The position numbers and the translations under genes were made by a program. Shown piece after piece: positions 4,178 to 42,639 of a stretch of 64,000 bases of DNA (positions within the stretch are counted from its first letter, which is position 1; each line of letters opens with the position of its first letter). A model generated the notes under the pieces. That model searched no databases, was not told the origin of the DNA, and saw only the letters and a list, made by a program, of their open reading frames with translations. This DNA is from Coffea arabica (lineage: Eukaryota; Streptophyta; Magnoliopsida; Gentianales; Rubiaceae), in contig NC_092317.1 of NCBI RefSeq assembly GCF_036785885.1, positions 8,620,501 through 8,684,500 of the forward strand. The letters are read 5' to 3'.

Positions 4178-5480
4178 ATGGTTGCAAGAATGGAAATGAT
4201 ATCCCAAGAAATGATTAAGCCATCAGATCCTACACCTGACCATCTAAGAAACTACAACCTGTCCTTCCTAGACCAAATCGCACCATCTCATTACTTTCCT
4301 CTAATCTCTTTCTATCAATCTACTCAAAACTGCAACCTTGATCATTCCCAAATATCTCAACGACTGAAATCTTCATTCTCTTCTGCCTTAACCAAATTCT
4401 ATCCACTTGCAGGGAGGATCAATGGAACTCTCTCCATTGATTGTAATGATGAGGGGGCTTCCTACATTGAAGTACAAGTTCATGATCAACTATCGGAAGT
4501 TATGAAGTATGGCAAAATTGAGGATCTAACTCAATATCTACCTCTGAATCCCCATGGTGGTACGAGTGATATCGATAATAGACCGTTCAAATCAATTTTT
4601 TCGATTGTAAAGGGATAGCTATTGGAGTGTGTATGTCACATAAAATTGCAGATGGAACATCTTTGGTTATGTTCATGACGTCATGGGCTCAACCATGCAT
4701 GGGGGATAATGCTGGATCTGTCTTGCAGCCTGATTTCAATTTGGCTAGCCAATATTTTCCACCTAAAAACTTTTCTCTTCTTGGATCTAAACCTCATGAC
4801 TCGAGGTTCAAGGAGCAAAAATTTGTTGCAAAAAGACTTGTTTTTAATAATGAAAAGTTGTCAAAACTCAAAAATGTTTATCTCCTCAGAATCTGATGTA
4901 AAAGAAGCCACTCGAGTTGAAGCTGTCACTGCTTTTCTTTGGAAACGTTTCGTGGATGTCGGAAAAGCTAAAATAGGAGGCAAAACCACGTTTGCTGCGC
5001 TGCATGCTTTAAATTTGAGGCCAAGAGTGAAGCCACCCTGTTCAGAGCATACTTTTGGAAATCTCTGGAGGTTTATTCTTGCATTTTCATCTTCTAATCA
5101 GAGTACCACCACTGAATATGAGGACTTAATAATCCAACTGAGAAATGGGATTACAAAAGTTAATAGTGAATGTCTCGAATATACACAGAACAAAGAGAAG
5201 AATTGGGATTATATCATGAGGTCATTGGGATTGTTCTCCAAGGGAGAGATGGATATTTGTACATTTAGTAGTTGGTGTAGATTTCCTATTTATGAGGTGG
5301 ATTTTGGGTGGGGGGAAGCCTCTTTGGGTAAGCACAACAGCCATTCCTTTCAAGAATGCTGTGATTTTGACGCCTACAAGAAGTGGTGATGGAATTGAAG
5401 CATTGGCGAACATGGTTGAAGACGAATTCGAGATGATTCAACATGATGAGGAGTTCATTTCAGTTCTTGTTCATGCATGA
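4178..5480 (+). pseudogene. BAHD acyltransferase, broken by three indels
   Basis: A former intronless BAHD acyltransferase, a family that moves acyl groups from acyl-CoA to an alcohol or amine in the cytosol. The ATG at 4178 opens a frame with the family's N-terminal IKPSDPTP block, the YPLAGR block and SIDCNDEG. The catalytic HKIAD box follows at about 4639 and the DFGWG box at about 5299. The frame is interrupted three times. Near 4585 there is a 7-base loss compared with the neighbour at 6894 (cc[attagct]gttcaaatc). A small indel lies near 4880. An extra G sits in the G run of the DFGWG codons near 5313. No in-frame nonsense change is seen apart from these shifts, so it is either a young pseudogene or partly a product of assembly error. 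The last segment ends at 5480. Confidence 0.85.
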
Positions 5481-6893: not shown

Positions 6894-8159
6894 ATGGCAC
6901 AGGTAGAGATAATATTGAAGGAGTACATCAAACCATCTTCTCCAACACCCCTTCAACTCAAACATCACAATCTGTCCTTCATTGATCGTCTTCCAACGCC
7001 AATCTATCTTCCCTTCATACTATTTTATCAAAATCATGCTTCATCTGATCGCTCCCTAATTTCCCAGCAGCTAAAACTGTCCATATCTCAAGCCTTAACC
7101 AAGTTCTACCCCTTAGCAGGAAGGATACAGGATGACGTTTTCGTCGATTGTAATGATTCAGGGGCTTTATTCATCGAAGCTCAAGTTCGTTCTTCCCTTT
7201 CAGAGGCAACTCAAAACTTTGTAATTGAGGAATTCAACCATTATCTGCCAATAAAGCCTTACGAAATTATTGAGAATAGTTTGAGAAATGATGTCCCATT
7301 AGCTGTTCAAATCAGTTTCTTTAAGTGTGGAGGCATGTCTGTTGGAGTTTGCATATCGCACAGAATAGCTGATGCATTATCTGTCGTGATGTTCTTGAAT
7401 TCATGGGCTGCTATATGCAGGGGTAGCGACGATAGTGAGATTCTGAAACCAAATTTTGATCTGGGATGCCTTCATTTTCCTCCTCCAGAAGATGTCCCTA
7501 GAGCCCCTCTTATATCAGTTGCAGATAAACAAAAGATTGTTGCAAAGAGGTTTGTATTCAGCAAGGAAAGGCTGGAAAGAATCAAAGAACTAGCTTCATC
7601 AGACTCCACTTCTACAATAAAGGATCCAACTCGAGTAGAAGCGCTTTCCGCTTTCATATGCAAGAATTTCATTGAGGTAAATCGGTCAAAACTTGATTCT
7701 GAAACCATGTTTGTTGCAATCCATAATGTGAACTTGAGACCAAAAATGAAATTACCACACGATGAATTCGCCTTTGGGAATGTTTCCCTACCTATTTCTG
7801 CCGTGTTGATGCCCGAGATGGAGAAAGAATGCCATAATTTAGCGGGACATTTGAGATATGCAATAAGAAATGTAAATGATGATTTTGTGAAAAATGTTGT
7901 TCAACAGAGAGAGCCTTATCTGAGGATTTTGAGTGAAACAAGGAAACTTTTGTCTAAGGCAGAGATGTGTTATTGTAACTTTACCAGCTGGTGTAGGTTT
8001 CCTGTATATGAAGTGGACTTTGGCTGGGGAAAGCCTTTTGCAATTGGCACGGCAGCTGTGCCTAGGAAAAACACCATAATTTTGATGAGTACCAAATGTG
8101 GTGATGGAATAGAAGCAGTGACGGAGCCAGGATTTTTTTTTTGGGGGGGCCAAAATTGA
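6894..8159 (+). CDS. BAHD acyltransferase with transposon-altered C-terminus
   Basis: Predicted cytosolic acyl-CoA-dependent acyltransferase of the vinorine synthase-like BAHD group. The substrate is not deducible. The single exon encodes 421 aa. It shows IKPSSPTP at residues 13-20, a YPLAGR block, FVDCNDSGALF, the catalytic HRIAD (H156, D160) and the structural DFGWG (375-379) followed by KP. The frame is whole up to GDGIEA. A 231-bp element then inserts and supplies a foreign tail (VTEPGFFFWGGQN) and a stop. The original last exon sequence continues after the element in its old frame and stops at 8432-8434, so about 24 native C-terminal residues are lost. Both catalytic motifs remain, so activity is possible but unproven. 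BAHD C-terminal ends usually form part of the second domain's fold. Confidence 0.85.
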   Translation: MAQVEIILKEYIKPSSPTPLQLKHHNLSFIDRLPTPIYLPFILFYQNHASSDRSLISQQLKLSISQALTKFYPLAGRIQDDVFVDCNDSGALFIEAQVRSSLSEATQNFVIEEFNHYLPIKPYEIIENSLRNDVPLAVQISFFKCGGMSVGVCISHRIADALSVVMFLNSWAAICRGSDDSEILKPNFDLGCLHFPPPEDVPRAPLISVADKQKIVAKRFVFSKERLERIKELASSDSTSTIKDPTRVEALSAFICKNFIEVNRSKLDSETMFVAIHNVNLRPKMKLPHDEFAFGNVSLPISAVLMPEMEKECHNLAGHLRYAIRNVNDDFVKNVVQQREPYLRILSETRKLLSKAEMCYCNFTSWCRFPVYEVDFGWGKPFAIGTAAVPRKNTIILMSTKCGDGIEAVTEPGFFFWGGQN

Positions 8160-8359
8160 AATTCCATTCAAAGATGACTAATTCATATATATATATATAT
8201 ATATATCAACTCTCATAATATAAACTAAAATTGAAAAAATTTAGGGGGGGCCAATTTTATTTTACACACATATTTACATATTATGAATTAAAATTCTCAA
8301 AACTTAGGGGGGGCCATGCCCCCCTCTGCCCCCCTTGGCTCCGTCATTGAATAGAAGCA
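8107..8359. mobile_element. 231-bp MITE (Mutator-like) inside the BAHD gene
   Basis: The element runs from 8118 to 8348. Its ends are inverted: GTGACGGAGCCAGG at the left, and a right end whose complement reads AATGACGGAGCCAAGG. G-rich and C-rich tracts lie just inside, and there is an AT repeat in the middle. It is flanked by a perfect 11-bp direct repeat GAATAGAAGCA at 8107-8117 and 8349-8359. An 11-bp target duplication with inverted ends fits Mutator-like non-autonomous elements best. The perfect flanks indicate a recent insertion. It carries no open frame of its own. Confidence 0.85.
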
Positions 8360-8434
8360 TGGATTAACATGGCGGAAGACCATATGGAGTTGCTCCCAAG
8401 TGACTTTCTTTCACTTGCAAATCATGATTTTTAG

Positions 8435-13135: not shown

Positions 13136-14551
13136 ATGTGTGACACGACCAAATTCAACCGGAAGCCATTGCAGCATGTTGAGGTCCTGACCAAGAAACT
13201 CGTCAAACCATCGTCCCCAACACCAAATCGCCTGCAAAACTACAAATTATCCTCATTTGATCAGCTAGCTCCTCGGTCACTTGTGCACCTTGTTTACTTT
13301 TACGAAAATAATGATAGTTGTAAGGGCAATCACGACGAGGCTGGAGTTGTCCAGAGGCATGAAATACTTCAAATTTCGCTGGCAGAGACGTTAAGTCACT
13401 TTCGCCCGCTTGCTGGAAGGATTTCGGATGATGGGAGGCGCTCAGTTGATTGCCAAGATCAAGGAGCTTTATACATAGAAGCAAAGGTGAATTGCCAGCT
13501 TAATCAGTTTCTGAATCAAGCGTATGAAGATGTTGAACTTCTTGCAGATTTCATTCCTGATGGCGGTCTGAATGGCGATGGTGCATTATTGAAGGTACAA
13601 GTCACTTTCTTCCTGTGTGGAGGGTTTGCTCTAACTTGCAGCATATCACACACGGTAGCTGATGGATTCACTGGTTGTACATTCTTCGATGAGTGGGCAA
13701 AAATGTGTGGACATGGCAAGGATAATAACAACATTTGCGATATTAAGTGCCTAAGTTTCAATTTAGCTTCAACTTTTCCATCTAGAGACTTGCCTGCAGT
13801 GCCTCGTCCTGTGCTAAGACCTTCAGCTAAGGTTGTAAGTAAGCTGCTTTTGTTCGATGAATTTGCAATAAAAAGCTTGAAAAACAAAGTCATCGAGGCA
13901 ACGAAAAGCAGTACTACAATTACAGCTCTGCATGATGATATAGATGCATCGGTGGAATTTCGCCCTTCAAGGCTTGAGGTTGTCACTGCATTCATCTGGA
14001 GGGGTCTTATCCGTGCTGCTCAGAAAAGACATGGGTATTTAAGAGCTTCTATGACAACAATCTCTGTAAATTTGAGAGGGAAAACAGCTCTAGGAATTGA
14101 AGATAACTCTTTCGGCAACCTGTTTGTGGCTGTTCCTATAAAGTTCATCCCCGATGAAACCAAAATGGAGTTGCATCACTTTGTGCAGTTAATCAGGACA
14201 ACATTGCAGGAAGCACGTAATGTCTACACGAAAGCATCCTCAGCAGATGAGATTTTCTTAATGGTTCAGAAGTTTCAGGACCAAGTACAAAAGGAGCTAG
14301 GAGATAAAGAAGTGGATACTCGGCTTTCCACAAGTTTGCGCAGGTTCCCCCTATATGGAGCTGATTTTGGTTGGGGAAAGCCGTCATGGATTATTCTTGG
14401 TAATGTCGGAGGACGTCCTGAGATGTTTTGTTTGTTGGACACCAAATGTGGCACTGGAGTTGAGGTTCGCGTAAACCTGAATGAGGTTGAAATGCCAATC
14501 TTTGAATCTGATCCAGAAATTGTGTCAGTCACATCCGTAGCTGCAAGATAG
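13136..14551 (+). CDS. BAHD acyltransferase, intact, divergent member
   Basis: Predicted cytosolic acyl-CoA-dependent O- or N-acyltransferase. The single exon encodes 471 aa, slightly long for the family (about 430-460). It shows LVKPSSPTP near residue 22, FRPLAGR, SVDCQDQGALY, the catalytic HTVAD (H172, D176) and DFGWG (410-414) followed by KP. Both key motifs are canonical, and no indel or early stop is seen. It differs from its neighbours by an acidic insertion before the YIEAKV region and a longer loop after the mid-protein KLLLFDEF block. Its C-terminus reads VRVNLNEVEMPIFESDP instead of the EAWxNMxEDEM pattern of the others. It may therefore represent an older lineage rather than a recent tandem copy. 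The acceptor cannot be read from sequence. Confidence 0.92.
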   Translation: MCDTTKFNRKPLQHVEVLTKKLVKPSSPTPNRLQNYKLSSFDQLAPRSLVHLVYFYENNDSCKGNHDEAGVVQRHEILQISLAETLSHFRPLAGRISDDGRRSVDCQDQGALYIEAKVNCQLNQFLNQAYEDVELLADFIPDGGLNGDGALLKVQVTFFLCGGFALTCSISHTVADGFTGCTFFDEWAKMCGHGKDNNNICDIKCLSFNLASTFPSRDLPAVPRPVLRPSAKVVSKLLLFDEFAIKSLKNKVIEATKSSTTITALHDDIDASVEFRPSRLEVVTAFIWRGLIRAAQKRHGYLRASMTTISVNLRGKTALGIEDNSFGNLFVAVPIKFIPDETKMELHHFVQLIRTTLQEARNVYTKASSADEIFLMVQKFQDQVQKELGDKEVDTRLSTSLRRFPLYGADFGWGKPSWIILGNVGGRPEMFCLLDTKCGTGVEVRVNLNEVEMPIFESDPEIVSVTSVAAR

Positions 14552-18473: not shown

Positions 18474-19820
18474 TCACTGATTATGGACTCTGGCTGTACT
18501 ATCAGCGGTTGCGAGTGAAAGAAGCTCGTCTGGGATCATAGCCATTTCGTCCTCCACCACGTTAGCCCATGCTTCAATTCCATCACCACAACTTGAATCC
18601 AGGAAAATTACACAATTCTTCATAGGGGGAACTTTAGTGCCCACCCAAATAGGCTTGCCCCACCCATAGTCCACTTCATATACCGGAAATCTGCACCAAC
18701 TGGTAAACTTACAAATTATCATTGGCTGCTTAGCAAGTCGTTCCTTTATATTATTCTCAAAGGTATTCAAATAAGGCACTCCACTTTGAACATGCTTGAT
18801 ATACTCACCATTGATTTTTCTGATTGCGGTCCTCAAGAGCCCTACTAGATCATAACAATATTTTTTATCATGATCATCTTGATCAGACATTGTTAATAAA
18901 GCTGTTGTGGCAATTGCCAAGTTGCCAAAGACTAATCGGTCACCAGGCAAGCTCATTTTCGGTCTTAAGTTCACGCCATGGTACGCGAGAAAATTTGTTT
19001 TGTGATCAACCTTAGCCTGGGTGATGCTGCTTAAATTCTTCCACATAAAAGCTGAAACTGCTTCAATCCGAGTTGGATCCTTTACTGAACTTCCCGAGGC
19101 TGAGGAGGAAGCAAGTTGTTTGAGTGCATCTAACTTTTCCTTGTCGAACACAAACCTTTTGGTGACTAGACTTTCTTTCTCTTCCAGTGACATGAAATCA
19201 TGAGTAGTTAAGGGAATGTTTGCTGGAGGAAAAAGACGCCCTGCTAATTCAAAATCAGGTTGCACAACTTCATCAGCTTGGCTGCGACATGTGGCAGCCC
19301 ATGCATTCATGAATGTCACAAAGGACATAGCATCAGCTAACTTGTGTGAGATGCATACCCCAACAGCCATTCCTCCGCATTCAAAGAAACTGATTTGGAT
19401 ACCTAACATCAAGTTATTCTTGCTAGAAGCATAAAAAGGTTCAAAGGGGAGATATTGGTTCGGTTCCTCTACGGTAGTGCTCTGGATTAATGCTTGTGAG
19501 AGGTGAGCATGAACTCGAGATTCGACAAATAGTGCTCCGGAGTCATTACAATCAACAGAAAGATTTTGATTGGTCCTTCCAGCTAATGGGTAGAATTTTG
19601 TTAGGACCTCAGACAAGGACTGTTTTAGATGTTGGCATCTTTTGGCTTGGTCGATATTGTTTGGGCATGAGGACCTGTTTTGATAGAAGAAGATAAGAGG
19701 AACATAAATGGAGGGCATAAGTTGATCTAGCAAGGACAGTTTTAGGTCTCTACAGGCATGGGGTGTTGGAGATGATGGTTTGATCAACTCCTCTGATACC
19801 ACCTCCATGTTTCCTACCAT
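18474..19820 (-). CDS. BAHD acyltransferase, intact, vinorine synthase-like
   Basis: Predicted cytosolic acyl-CoA-dependent acyltransferase. The single exon encodes 448 aa, a normal length. It shows ELIKPSSPTPH at residues 11-21, FYPLAGR, SVDCNDSGALFVESRV, the catalytic HKLAD (H159, D163) and, in place of the usual DFGWG, DYGWG (384-388) followed by KP. The block order and C-terminal EAWANVVEDEM closely follow vinorine synthase and stemmadenine O-acetyltransferase-type enzymes of Gentianales. Acetylation of an alkaloid-type alcohol is a reasonable but untested guess. A TATA-rich stretch at about 19879-19902 lies 60-80 bases upstream of the ATG. The remnant at 9945-10275 derives from a gene of this subtype, which implies at least one past duplication. 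Confidence 0.93.
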   Translation of the reverse strand: MVGNMEVVSEELIKPSSPTPHACRDLKLSLLDQLMPSIYVPLIFFYQNRSSCPNNIDQAKRCQHLKQSLSEVLTKFYPLAGRTNQNLSVDCNDSGALFVESRVHAHLSQALIQSTTVEEPNQYLPFEPFYASSKNNLMLGIQISFFECGGMAVGVCISHKLADAMSFVTFMNAWAATCRSQADEVVQPDFELAGRLFPPANIPLTTHDFMSLEEKESLVTKRFVFDKEKLDALKQLASSSASGSSVKDPTRIEAVSAFMWKNLSSITQAKVDHKTNFLAYHGVNLRPKMSLPGDRLVFGNLAIATTALLTMSDQDDHDKKYCYDLVGLLRTAIRKINGEYIKHVQSGVPYLNTFENNIKERLAKQPMIICKFTSWCRFPVYEVDYGWGKPIWVGTKVPPMKNCVIFLDSSCGDGIEAWANVVEDEMAMIPDELLSLATADSTARVHNQ

Positions 19821-24502: not shown

Positions 24503-25798
24503 TCAATTCACAGTCAATAGGTCCACTTCCTGCTCAAATTTGGCCATTTCCTTTTCAGCCATTACTATCCAGGCTTCGATGCCACCAGGAGATCTTGAAT
24601 CGAAGAGGAAGACGTGATTTTTACAAGAAAAACTTGTACTACTCACCCAAATGGGATTTCCCCATCCAAAATCGGCCTCAAAAATTGGAAATCCACACCA
24701 GCTGCTAAACCTAACACCATGCACATCTTTCCGAACCAAAAATCTTCCAACCTCATTGAAGTTATTCTCTGCAACTTCACATCCATTTTCACCTAATAGT
24801 TTTTTACCATAACTTTGGTTTATTTTTCCAAATGCTTCCCTGATTTTGTCCACCAACCCAATCCAATCTTTAGCGGCTGCACCACTTGTTACAGCATGCG
24901 CCATTTGGAAGATATTACCGAAAGAAGTATCCGGCAGTGGTGGGATCATTCTTTTTCTCAAATTCACTGGATGGGATATAACGGATGTGCCATTTTCTTC
25001 CACCGCATTTGCAGCCATGCAAGACTTCCATATATATGCTGATACAACCTGGACTCTTGTTGGTTTTGCCCCGGGCCAACGAGCCATGGCTTTTGATTTA
25101 AGTAATTCGATCACCGGGGCATCGAAAACAAACCTTTTTGTTACAAACTTTTCGACTGGAGTTTGAAGCGGTGGAGTTTCTGGATCAGGCTCAAAATCAG
25201 GAGTTTTTCTTAAAGGAAAAATAGGTGCAGAGTTAAAGACAGGCTCTAATACCATACTGCTTAAACCCCAAGCTTTCGCGGCCGTGGCAGCCCAAGCTTT
25301 GATAAAAGAGCAAATGCTCCATCCATCTGCAATCCTGTGCGAGTGGCATATACCAATGGCTAATCCTCCACATTTGAAGAAGTTAACTTGTATGGCTAAC
25401 AATTCTCTTTCATCCGTTACTCTGCCACTCGACTTGCAAGGGCTGAGATGATCAAGAATTTGGATTTCCGGACTTTTAAGAAGGTCTGAAAGATGACCAT
25501 CGACTTCAGCTTCCGCGTATAGGATCCCTTGATCGTTGCAATCAATCAAGGTCTGGCCCTTGATTCTTCCAGCCATAGGGTAGAAGTGAGTTAGAGTTTC
25601 TGATAAAGATGTCTTCAGCCATTTGAAGATTTGAGATTGTTTGACGTTGCTGGTTTTCTGTGCAGAATAGTAGAGAATGAGAGGTATGTAAAAATGTGGT
25701 ATTTGGCATTCTATGAAGGAGAGTTTGTAATCTCTACGCTCAGCTGGGGTTGGAGAAGATGGCTTGATGAGCTGTGTGGTTACTATGTTAACCTTCAT
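24503..25798 (-). CDS. BAHD acyltransferase, intact
   Basis: Predicted cytosolic acyl-CoA-dependent acyltransferase. The single exon encodes 431 aa. It shows QLIKPSSPTP at residues 9-18, FYPMAGR, LIDCNDQGILYAEAEV, the catalytic HRIAD (H154, D158) and DFGWG (376-380) followed by NP, where KP is usual. FSSWCGFPIFEADFGWGNP is the local block, and the C-terminus keeps EAWIVMAEKEM. No indel or early stop is seen. It shares the family core with the neighbours but is clearly diverged from the 18474 gene, so it is not a very recent copy. An AATATAATTA motif about 50 bases upstream of the ATG could be its TATA element. The substrate cannot be assigned. Confidence 0.93.
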   Translation of the reverse strand: MKVNIVTTQLIKPSSPTPAERRDYKLSFIECQIPHFYIPLILYYSAQKTSNVKQSQIFKWLKTSLSETLTHFYPMAGRIKGQTLIDCNDQGILYAEAEVDGHLSDLLKSPEIQILDHLSPCKSSGRVTDERELLAIQVNFFKCGGLAIGICHSHRIADGWSICSFIKAWAATAAKAWGLSSMVLEPVFNSAPIFPLRKTPDFEPDPETPPLQTPVEKFVTKRFVFDAPVIELLKSKAMARWPGAKPTRVQVVSAYIWKSCMAANAVEENGTSVISHPVNLRKRMIPPLPDTSFGNIFQMAHAVTSGAAAKDWIGLVDKIREAFGKINQSYGKKLLGENGCEVAENNFNEVGRFLVRKDVHGVRFSSWCGFPIFEADFGWGNPIWVSSTSFSCKNHVFLFDSRSPGGIEAWIVMAEKEMAKFEQEVDLLTVN

Positions 25799-39056: not shown

Positions 39057-40643
39057 TCAGCATTTCCAGCATGAAGTTGCAATGATGGGCTTTGATTTCC
39101 AGCCAAGAACCAAGCAGCCCTTCTCTTCCACAATGGTATAACCTTCACAAGAATTAGTCTTTGCCAACCATTGCTTAGCCTGTGCTATCATCTTGATTGG
39201 CGCAGCCTGAAATCCGGCGCGGCTCATCCTCCTCCTCCACTGATCCACCCTTTCATGCCTTTCGAGCCTAGCAGGCCCCTCACAGCTCACAATGTTCTTG
39301 ATTTCCTCCGCGAAGTAGAACTGCTCCATCTTAGCACGCCTAGTGTCATATTTAGGCAGCAATGCGTCGAGGGAGTCAAAAATTGCAGAGTAGTAATGCA
39401 GTGCTTCCATAAACCTCCCAAGAAAAAATGGTCCATTGTGACTCGAGTCCTGTTCAACAAGAACCAAAACCTTTGGTGAAAGTTCATGAATTATCTGCAA
39501 TACTGAGTTGAGAGCCCCTCTACTCTCTTTCACCACACAATGCAGCTGAAGGATGCTATTAACCACAAGGACTTCACCATCAAGCACCTTAATATCTTGA
39601 GGCTTCAGGTTTTCCAAGTTGCTTTCCACCACTGAAAACTCCAAATTTATTCCAAGACTGCGTGCATAGGCCTCAAGCTCATCTCCTATGACCTGGAAAC
39701 GTTCCACGGACAGGCCAACTGCAGTGATCCTGAGGCGTCGAGGAGGTTGGCCACCACGATTGGCGAGGCTCTGAATCAGCCTACGCCATTGGTGGCCATG
39801 AGGCAAACCAAGGGTCATCCCCAAGTCCACCACGTGGACTAAACACTCTCCCTCAAAGGCTTCCAATATGGAAGAATTCGCAACATAGTGGCCAAACCGT
39901 ATGTACGGGCAAGTTTCATAAACAAGGCATAAAGCCTCTTCCCTTTTATCTGAATTAACATCCATGATATTCATCTTTGGTACAACATAGCCCACTGTCC
40001 CCAGTGGTTGAACCAATGCCAGCCGGTCAGCCAGTCCCTGCACGAAACAGGAGGCCACACGCTGGAAGGAAGATCCAAAAACCAATGCTTTGGCTCGAAG
40101 TTCAGATAATAGGACAGAGGCATGAGTCTTGTCCCTGCAAGCTACAGCTTCAGCACAAGAAATGAGGAGTTGGACTAATTTCATCCCATCTCCGTTATCG
40201 TCTTGATCTTCATTTCCAGCATCCTGATCAGAACCACTGATGGCCTCTTCAACAGCCTCTGCAGCAAGGTACCTTTGAGTGTAAGTCCAAATGTGATCGC
40301 GAAAATGATGCCTCCCGAGGCTGTTAACACTGTTGGTACTACTCGTACGATAAATGCCTCCACTTCCAGAGCTCGAAAAGCTGCTGGAGCGGGAGTAACT
40401 GATAGAACTGTTATCAGTAGAATCAGTACAGTTAACAGTTCTCTTCAGCCTCTTCTGGTCACCAGTCTCATCAGACAATGTAGGAATCCAGAGAAAGGAT
40501 GCATTTTCCAACATTCCCAGAAAAGGCTGGCACATTGGGGAAAATGATGTTCTGAAACCTGGATCAAAAAATCCTGCATCAGACACCTCAAAATTGCACT
40601 CATCATTATATGATTCAGCAGGGTCCAAAACACCAGGGGCCAT
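39057..40643 (-). CDS. GRAS-family transcriptional regulator
   Basis: A plant-specific nuclear regulator. The single exon encodes 528 aa from the ATG at 40643 (MAPGVLDPAESYND). The open frame extends further upstream but without an ATG, and a TATATAA box lies about 75 bases before this ATG. Residues 1-153 are variable, with Ser-rich and acidic stretches (a run like SSFSSSGSGGIYR). The GRAS domain covers about 154-528: the first leucine-rich part (VQLLISCAEAVACRD), the VHIID motif as VHVVD at 269-273, the second leucine-rich part, the PFYRE region (IKNIVSCEGPARLERHER) and a SAW end with GYTIVEEKGCLVLGWK. The N-terminus lacks DELLA and TVHYNP motifs, so it is not a DELLA protein. The subfamily is not assigned. 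Confidence 0.92.
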   Translation of the reverse strand: MAPGVLDPAESYNDECNFEVSDAGFFDPGFRTSFSPMCQPFLGMLENASFLWIPTLSDETGDQKRLKRTVNCTDSTDNSSISYSRSSSFSSSGSGGIYRTSSTNSVNSLGRHHFRDHIWTYTQRYLAAEAVEEAISGSDQDAGNEDQDDNGDGMKLVQLLISCAEAVACRDKTHASVLLSELRAKALVFGSSFQRVASCFVQGLADRLALVQPLGTVGYVVPKMNIMDVNSDKREEALCLVYETCPYIRFGHYVANSSILEAFEGECLVHVVDLGMTLGLPHGHQWRRLIQSLANRGGQPPRRLRITAVGLSVERFQVIGDELEAYARSLGINLEFSVVESNLENLKPQDIKVLDGEVLVVNSILQLHCVVKESRGALNSVLQIIHELSPKVLVLVEQDSSHNGPFFLGRFMEALHYYSAIFDSLDALLPKYDTRRAKMEQFYFAEEIKNIVSCEGPARLERHERVDQWRRRMSRAGFQAAPIKMIAQAKQWLAKTNSCEGYTIVEEKGCLVLGWKSKPIIATSCWKC

Positions 40644-40717
40644 CTTTTTCTTTTCCTTTTTTTTTTTTAATGATAATTTGTGAGGACCTTGAAAGAACCA
40701 TTTAACCACCAGGGCTG

Positions 40718-40726
40718 GTTTATATA
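40718..40726 (-). promoter_or_regulatory. TATA box of the GRAS gene
   Basis: On the minus strand the sequence reads GCTATATAAACC, about 75 bases upstream of the chosen ATG. It supports the start at 40643 rather than the longer open frame. Confidence 0.6.
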
Positions 40727-42639
40727 GCAAGATACAAACTCCCAATTTTTCTTGTTCGTTAAACACAATAAAGTTTGTCAAATACTTTAATGCCAAAAAT
40801 AATATTTAAACGATTTTCTCTATTAAAATACATAGAGCAACTAGAACAAAATGCAATTAAAGTCTGTTTTGTACACCTTCCTAATGTCTTGGAGGTTTAT
40901 ATACTTTGTACTTTGCTACCTTCTAGAATCAGGGTTCGTGATTAATTTATTATATATAAATTTTTGCGACTCGAGGTTTGTGAATCCTGCAATTAAATAT
41001 GATGGCTTTATGAAATAGTAGAAAAGAATGATGGTTCTATTTCTATTGGCTGATGAGTTTTACAATTTGCATGCTTCTTTGTACTTTCTTTATTTCTCTG
41101 TTTTTTCCTTCTTTTTTATTCACTTTTCTGTCCACTCCTCATTTGTTGATGCCCTAAAGTATGATAACAATAGTAACAGTACCACGAATAATTAGAATGA
41201 TTCTCATTATGACGTTAATTAATGATCATTATGATGAAAAAAAAATTGAGTATGATGATAGCATTAGTAACAGTAATTTTGAAGGCCTAATACTTGCAAT
41301 CTGGACAAAGAAAATTTAGTCTCACCTTTTTAGTTTGTATTTGCAGAATTTACATATGTTTCTCTTTTTCCTTGAAATGGAAAACACTTGACAAGATGAT
41401 TAAGCATATTGGTGAGTAGCTCATCATCTGGAAAGTACTCAAGACTTGTTTCTTGAGTTATCAATCCAATCTTACTTTTAGCATTGCTCGAATGCTATGT
41501 ATGAACTCCACAATCTGAGAGAAGCTGACAAATAAAACAATGAACATAAAAAGACTTTTAAAACATCTCATATATGAAAATCAGGGAGGCTAAGAAAATT
41601 GCCATACTACTCTATTAATCATACATCACATCACACCACATTTTTGGCCAAAAAAAAGTACACTGTTCTTCGAGGGAATGCCTAAAATGTAACAAAAGTC
41701 GGCTCTAAATCATACTATTTCATTACAGCACTAAAATATCTGTGCATCTTCTAAACTTAAATCAGTAATTTTTGGTGGAAGGTGGGGGTTTTCTTCATTG
41801 GCAATGAAGCTTTAAACCAATGGAATAAAAGTTTCAACATTGGCTTCAAGAATCGGCATTAAGGATTTTATTCAGCCGGCCCGCATTGGGGAATGAAGTA
41901 ACTAGGAAACATAATTATTATTTTTTCTGGGAATCGCATAGTTACTTCCATTTCTCCTAATTTTATATTCTTTCTTGATTTATAAAATGCAAGGCATCTT
42001 TGTACGGTTTTGGCTTGTAGTATTTGGATATTAGCATCCATCATTAATTCCTGTCGATACAATCTCGGTAGTATATTCTTTTTCAATTCATACTCCAACT
42101 CCCAACAAGAATTCTGTTGTGTAAATTTATGCTTTATACATCTGCTTATAGCAGTCTTCAAAACTGAAGATTTTAAACAGCTTAAGCAATGATTGGTGAA
42201 GATTAAGAAACAAATAACTAAAAAATTACAGGTAAATGTGACCTTTTGCTTTATTTACTATAAAATAGTTGCAAAAAGCTTCATAGTTTCTAGATTGATA
42301 ACAAGAAAACCCTCTTAATTAATGAGTTAATTAATACTGAGTGCATATTGCATGTCAATATCTAGCTCCAACTCAAGTTTACACCACTTGAAGCTTGAAA
42401 TCCCTTGATGGGCTATGAGAAAGATGGCAAGGGCAATCTCTTATTTGTTCATAGAATTTAATTTTGAAGTCCCTCCTGAAGGTTACATTACCTGATCAGC
42501 AAATATTGTGACATTTCTTTAAATTGTAGTACTAATTACTCATCAAGATCCAGCTCAACTCATTTTACTCAATTTTCAAGAGCTTTGATAACTTACCTTA
42601 GAATGGCTGGGGATTTGATCTCGTAAACTTCAAAGAATT

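Follow-up and report, generated by a model that had tools for sequence, protein, structure and literature searches.

In Brassica nigra, the BniHAT-1 and BniHAT-2 families expanded in one of several related genomes and have one and three members in exons (PMC7385995). The coffee MITE described below is likewise short and A+T-rich, carries an 8-bp target duplication and is one-sided in its spread; the two are likened without sequence comparison, and they differ in size (234 bp versus 673 and 666 bp) and in setting, as the coffee comparison concerns two subgenomes within one allotetraploid, unlike the related genomes of BniHAT (PMC7385995). Maize Ds1 (PMC3260210) shares with the coffee MITE its non-autonomous hAT character, its 8-bp duplications, its ability to mutate genes and its scant internal likeness to an autonomous element; the ends differ (C/TAGGGATGAAA in Ds1, CAGTGACGGAGCCA in coffee), and the mobility of the coffee element is presumed. 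Furthermore, longer relatives of the coffee MITE, unlike Ds1, carry DUF4371 together with a hAT dimerisation domain. For the interrupted gene, the best solved relative of the 421-residue product is vinorine synthase (2bgh), covered in a review (PMC10585174), which matches host residues 3-408; the 421-residue 2bgh chain runs 26 residues past the end of the match (395). Literature retrieved for Coffea arabica and vinorine synthase contained nothing on this BAHD gene, judged by titles and the starts of abstracts, and no title among the matches listed on coffee insertions of MITE or hAT type concerned this MITE family.

An interrupted BAHD gene and its uninterrupted homeolog

The window, a 64,000-nucleotide stretch of contig C8 (bases 8,620,501-8,684,500), contains a host gene whose open reading frame (6894-8159) encodes 421 amino acids closing in VTEPGFFFWGGQN. 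The protein matches the BAHD transferase family (PF02458, E 2.2e-74), and the Transferase domain with HXXXD and DFGWG by which such enzymes are recognized was found in the gene, HRIAD and DFGWG both lying in retained codons as the earlier note had indicated. We assign it to the BAHD acyltransferases, a family whose criteria include acyl-CoA-dependent acyl transfer. The present frame lacks the native C-terminal segment past G-I-E-A, which is a feature of the BAHD relatives examined rather than a formal criterion of the family. Excising the insert in silico restores a 432-residue frame with a stop at 8434 and the native end WINMAEDHMELLPSDFLSLANHDF; the net exchange at the C-terminus is 24 native residues for 13 element-encoded ones. 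The cut-off codons now lie out of frame, 3' of the new stop. Ala408 is kept because the CA at 8116-8117, which belongs to the element by its family boundaries, equals the original bases. The features are as follows.

6894-8117, plus strand: the 408 retained codons of a vinorine-synthase-like BAHD acyltransferase, an intronless frame with HRIAD and DFGWG (from open reading frame, domain and homeolog comparison)
8108-8115, plus strand: left copy of the target site duplication, AATAGAAG (36-copy comparison)
8116-8349, plus strand: putative non-autonomous hAT element (MITE), 234 bp, 64.5% A+T, CAGTGACGG...CGTCATTG, with 0 substitutions against the 36-copy majority
8116-8129, plus strand: left terminal inverted repeat, 14 bases, 93% complementary to 8336-8349
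8118-8159, plus strand: new C-terminus supplied by the element, VTEPGFFFWGGQN, with stop TGA (8157-8159), the frame being set by the T10G7 tract at 8133-8149
8139-8153, plus strand: internal repeat TTTTGGGGGGGCCAA, first of three (repeat search)
8240-8254, plus strand: internal repeat, second of three (repeat search)
8303-8317, plus strand: internal repeat, third of three (repeat search)
8336-8349, minus strand: right terminal inverted repeat, 14 bases, pairing with 8116-8129
8350-8357, plus strand: right copy of the target site duplication, AATAGAAG (36-copy comparison)
8360-8434, plus strand: cut-off native C-terminus, 24 codons WINMAEDHMELLPSDFLSLANHDF and stop (8432-8434), with 75 of 75 bases equal to those of the homeolog

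A DNA search with each flank returned one close match apiece, at C7:9122926-9124449 and C7:9124439-9125033, and the two matches share an 11-base overlap, made up of the bases that stand on either side of the insert on C8. The C7 copy (L025) is an uninterrupted 432-residue ORF with a single copy of the target and 97% amino acid identity. C7 carries the window's BAHD genes with their order kept, which identifies C7 and C8 as homeologs. These observations, an exact empty site on the homeolog among them, confirmed the proposal of the earlier note that a MITE sits inside the coding sequence and supplies the tail, and that the pre-insertion frame continues intact to 8434; the final 75 bases of this frame are the same in both copies. 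The ancestral C-terminus, which the earlier note considered still readable, is observed rather than guessed because the C7 homeolog keeps an empty site and an intact gene.

Across the 408 retained codons, 24 differ from those of C7, 13 silently and 11 not; over the whole joined frame, the NG86 estimates for the pair are dN 0.012 and dS 0.048. When the majority state among seven paralogs was used to polarise the substitutions, several of the votes being narrow, 6 nonsynonymous and 9 synonymous changes fell to the C8 copy and 3 and 4 to the homeolog, with three ties. For five of the six nonsynonymous changes of the C8 copy, four to seven of the seven paralogs agree with the homeolog, although these numbers are too small. 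Relaxed selection in the C8 copy was considered and set aside, with no difference shown between 6N:9S and 3N:4S. No disabling change was present in the 408 codons upstream of the insert, where many of them, with the insertion fixed, would have spoken against the reading of the earlier note, and we rejected a pseudogene formed by older decay.

Boundaries, class and spread of the element

An 11-bp direct repeat surrounds the insert at 8107-8117 and 8349-8359, and from it a 231-bp element with a perfect 11-bp target duplication had been read. The repeat exists, but the copies of the family place the boundaries elsewhere. A genome search with the element gave 1016 candidates, of which 40 matches were scored; four of these (L082-L085, covering query positions 44-231 only) did not enter the boundary analysis, which leaves 36 copies, among them L077, whose right end was set by the end motif as its alignment stopped short. 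Perfect 8-bp duplications flank 34 of the 36 full-length copies, which have the ends CA(G/A)TGACGG...CGTCATT(G/A); the two imperfect cases have 2 mismatches (L057) and 5 (L008). Under these family boundaries, full matches occurred at neither 7 nor 9 bases in those copies. By this comparison, the element is placed at 8116-8349, with a length of 234 bp and an 8-bp target duplication. The apparent values of 231 and 11 bp are explained by three extra matches that we attribute to chance: the target is preceded by a base identical to the final G of the element and followed by two bases identical to its initial CA. The insertion itself is not a chance pattern, given the exact homeologous empty site and the 8-bp duplication in 34 of 36 copies.

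The copies begin with CA (36/36) and end with TG (35/36), termini typical of hAT elements. Two longer relatives provide further information. L086 (1,462 bp) has both ends in common with the MITE and retains a remnant hAT dimerisation domain (PF05699, E 3.8e-10); its flanks match directly over 7 bases, and over 8 only when the final G of L086 is assigned to the target. L091 (C12:23818660-23822200) has its first 42 bases in common with the MITE at 97.6% identity, one end being present within the 3.5 kb read, and its two open reading frames, 559 and 276 amino acids long, carry DUF4371 (PF14291) and hAT dimerisation (PF05699) domains. The DUF4371 domain of L091 is divided between the two frames. 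With its 234 bp, multiple copies and lack of a transposase of its own, the insert has the properties of a MITE, and the 8-bp duplication, the ends and the longer relatives with hAT transposase domains make a non-autonomous hAT element its best interpretation. A Mutator origin was rejected: MITEs of Mutator (MULE) type have 9- to 11-bp target duplications, whereas the duplication here is 8 bp across copies and the 11 bp is unique to the chance matches of this site.

The copy in the BAHD gene shows no substitution over 234 positions relative to the majority of the 36. Ten of the 36, this one included, are without substitution, and the other 35 carry 69 together, or about 2 each, in a copy set skewed to young members because matches were ranked by likeness to this copy. 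Length variation among copies falls mostly in the AT repeat and the T/G tract. One 21-base end pattern has 134 exact matches, some within longer relatives. Consistent with the earlier note, the insertion is recent, as indicated by its lack of substitutions against the copy majority and by the empty homeologous site.

The scored matches are distributed unevenly, with 38 of 40 (this copy included) on whichever contig of a numbered pair is the richer and 2 on the poorer one, a bias not reached in 20,000 random 50:50 placements; the contig pairs were inferred from BAHD gene matches, except C13/C14 and C17/C18, which were paired by number only. No scored match fell on C17-C20, and C21 and C22 have one each. 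For a second copy on C8 (L002, C8:1711764), the homeologous C7 region lacked an element match, and the bases adjoining the site did not align. Joining the empty sites of the 36 copies gave frames of 31-193 codons within 290-bp flanks (121 here, limited by the flank), a range in which genes are not separable from chance. We interpret the MITE family as young and its closest copies, lying mainly in one subgenome, as a subgenome-biased burst; the empty homeolog and the contig-pair bias together suggest that most of this burst came after the two parental lineages had separated. The merger of the parental genomes of C. arabica has been dated to 350-610 thousand years ago in a study that also addressed insertion polymorphisms (PMC11018527). 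Compared with the C. canephora HCT structure 4G0B, whose origin is given in PMC13119808, the HCT exon of C7 has 298 of 299 identical residues and that of C8 has 297 of 299; this one-residue difference is a weak hint that C8 comes from C. eugenioides, and no conclusion is built on it. Being biased to one subgenome, the hAT MITE family may provide insertion markers in coffee.

Probable consequence for the encoded enzyme

The comparison with other BAHD genes drew on the 30 best of 103 BAHD-like matches; as the present gene is one of the 30, it covers the best 29 of 102 others. ORFs inspected by eye reached the C-terminus in 25 of these 29 loci, and all 25 extend at least 20 residues beyond G-I-E-A, with W as the next residue in 21; two of the 25, L034 and L035, are parts of genes that are disrupted at another point. 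The remaining four comprise L036 and L043, with no long ORF, L051, whose ORF lacks the C-terminus, and L031, which stops before the end of DFGWG. AlphaFold models predicted from alignments of four window BAHD proteins had a mean pLDDT of 34.5 for the truncated protein and 41.5 for the paralog at 18474-19820, too low for any use. In the part of the literature on the BAHD C-terminus that was consulted, we found no published test of a BAHD enzyme cut at this point, and the functional cost is for that reason inferred from conservation.

Collectively, a hAT MITE making an 8-bp duplication has recently entered one homeolog of a tandem BAHD gene just before its last 24 codons; longer hAT relatives that share its end probably mobilised it in trans. 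The insertion, the empty homeologous site, the shifted frame and the element-encoded stop are seen directly in the sequence. Any protein made from this copy would be without the conserved segment after G-I-E-A, and we propose that the plant tolerates this loss because the complete enzyme is still encoded by the homeolog on C7. We estimate a probability of about 0.72 that the truncated copy is non-functional or strongly impaired, a damaged homeolog backed by an intact partner; without the segment, folding or activity is most likely ruined. The earlier note had left the choice between a null allele and a new protein variant. Loss or strong reduction of function is favoured because the homeolog is intact and the C-terminal segment is present in 25 of 25 ORFs, and 'allele' is not quite the right word for a comparison between homeologs of one accession.

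Among the alternatives, a stable, active truncated product, perhaps changed in specificity and with the 13-residue tail as its new C-terminus, would fit the intact family motifs and the 408 of 432 codons kept. The frame is intronless, so its premature stop may escape exon-junction-dependent decay, and the transcript may survive to give truncated protein. We nevertheless consider such a variant unlikely, as the replaced segment is kept in every examined ORF that reaches the C-terminus and the tail hangs on the T10G7 tract: 10 of the 14 other lengths tried alter the length of the product by 7-20 residues, and the length of this T/G tract differs among copies.

Removal of all or part of the A+T-rich element as a new intron, restoring a near-native C-terminus, is quite unlikely. 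There are 15 GT-AG or GC-AG choices (donors at 8060-8329, introns of at least 60 bases) that keep the frame to the native stop, and pairing the GT at 8101 with the AG at 8354 would drop only four residues, GDGI; moreover, going by the title of Wessler's 1991 work, Ds1, also a hAT element, is reportedly spliced from exons. The figure of 15, however, is a bare enumeration of dinucleotides, without splice-site scoring or a chance control.

It is highly improbable that the element arrived in a gene copy that had already fallen silent or become dispensable, so that the insertion had no consequence. Other members of the cluster are indeed broken, both the window copy at 4178-5480 and the C7 counterpart of 18474-19820, but the 408 codons have remained open at a homeolog dN/dS of about 0.25, and the cut-off part is identical to the homeolog, although its 75 bases are too few to decide. 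Misplacement of the element during assembly, conceivable for a repeated sequence with homopolymers, has a practically negligible likelihood, as a misassembly would hardly mimic a perfect 8-bp duplication at the family boundaries and an exact empty site.

Probable impairment of the C8 copy by a real, recent and well-resolved insertion is of a familiar kind, damage to a redundant gene copy, and the case is clear but ordinary. The surprise is small; what gives the case value is its exact empty homeolog together with the reciprocal pattern described below. One genome holds a before-and-after pair, with the exact empty site as control, for duplicate-gene loss in a shared nucleus. Its importance would grow if the truncated enzyme proved active or if expression differed between the two copies.

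Reciprocal damage and other members of the cluster

The BAHD cluster in the window has five members, including a broken copy. Upstream of the truncated gene, 4178-5480 (plus strand) is a frame-broken BAHD copy whose C7 match is 96% identical over 336 bases, and three further full-length BAHD-like ORFs lie at 13136-14551 (plus), 18474-19820 (minus) and 24503-25798 (minus). The gene at 18474-19820 is intact in the window, and its C7 homeolog (C7:9169618-9175809; L034, L020, L096, L097) is split at about codon 107 by an insertion of about 4.8 kb. A direct repeat at the two ends of that insertion is 96.9% identical over 254 aligned bases, and the gene sequence overlaps by 6 bases around it; the ends are LTR-like, and the overlap is such as an LTR-type insertion would leave. 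In each homeologous cluster a different BAHD member has thus been lost or damaged, though with two genes only this may be coincidence. It is very doubtful that the clusters are dividing their enzymes between the subgenomes by reciprocal transposon damage with the MITE-tailed product as a working altered enzyme.

A second homeolog pair with one C-terminus lost was observed in L031 (C4:34022368-34026492) and L030 (C3). Homology to the C3 copy breaks off at L031:2628, inside DFGWG, and the exact 10-base end motifs of the MITE are absent from the fetched L031 stretch. Elsewhere in the window, a long ORF of 579 amino acids lies at 39057-40796 (minus strand); it resembles a GRAS-family protein.
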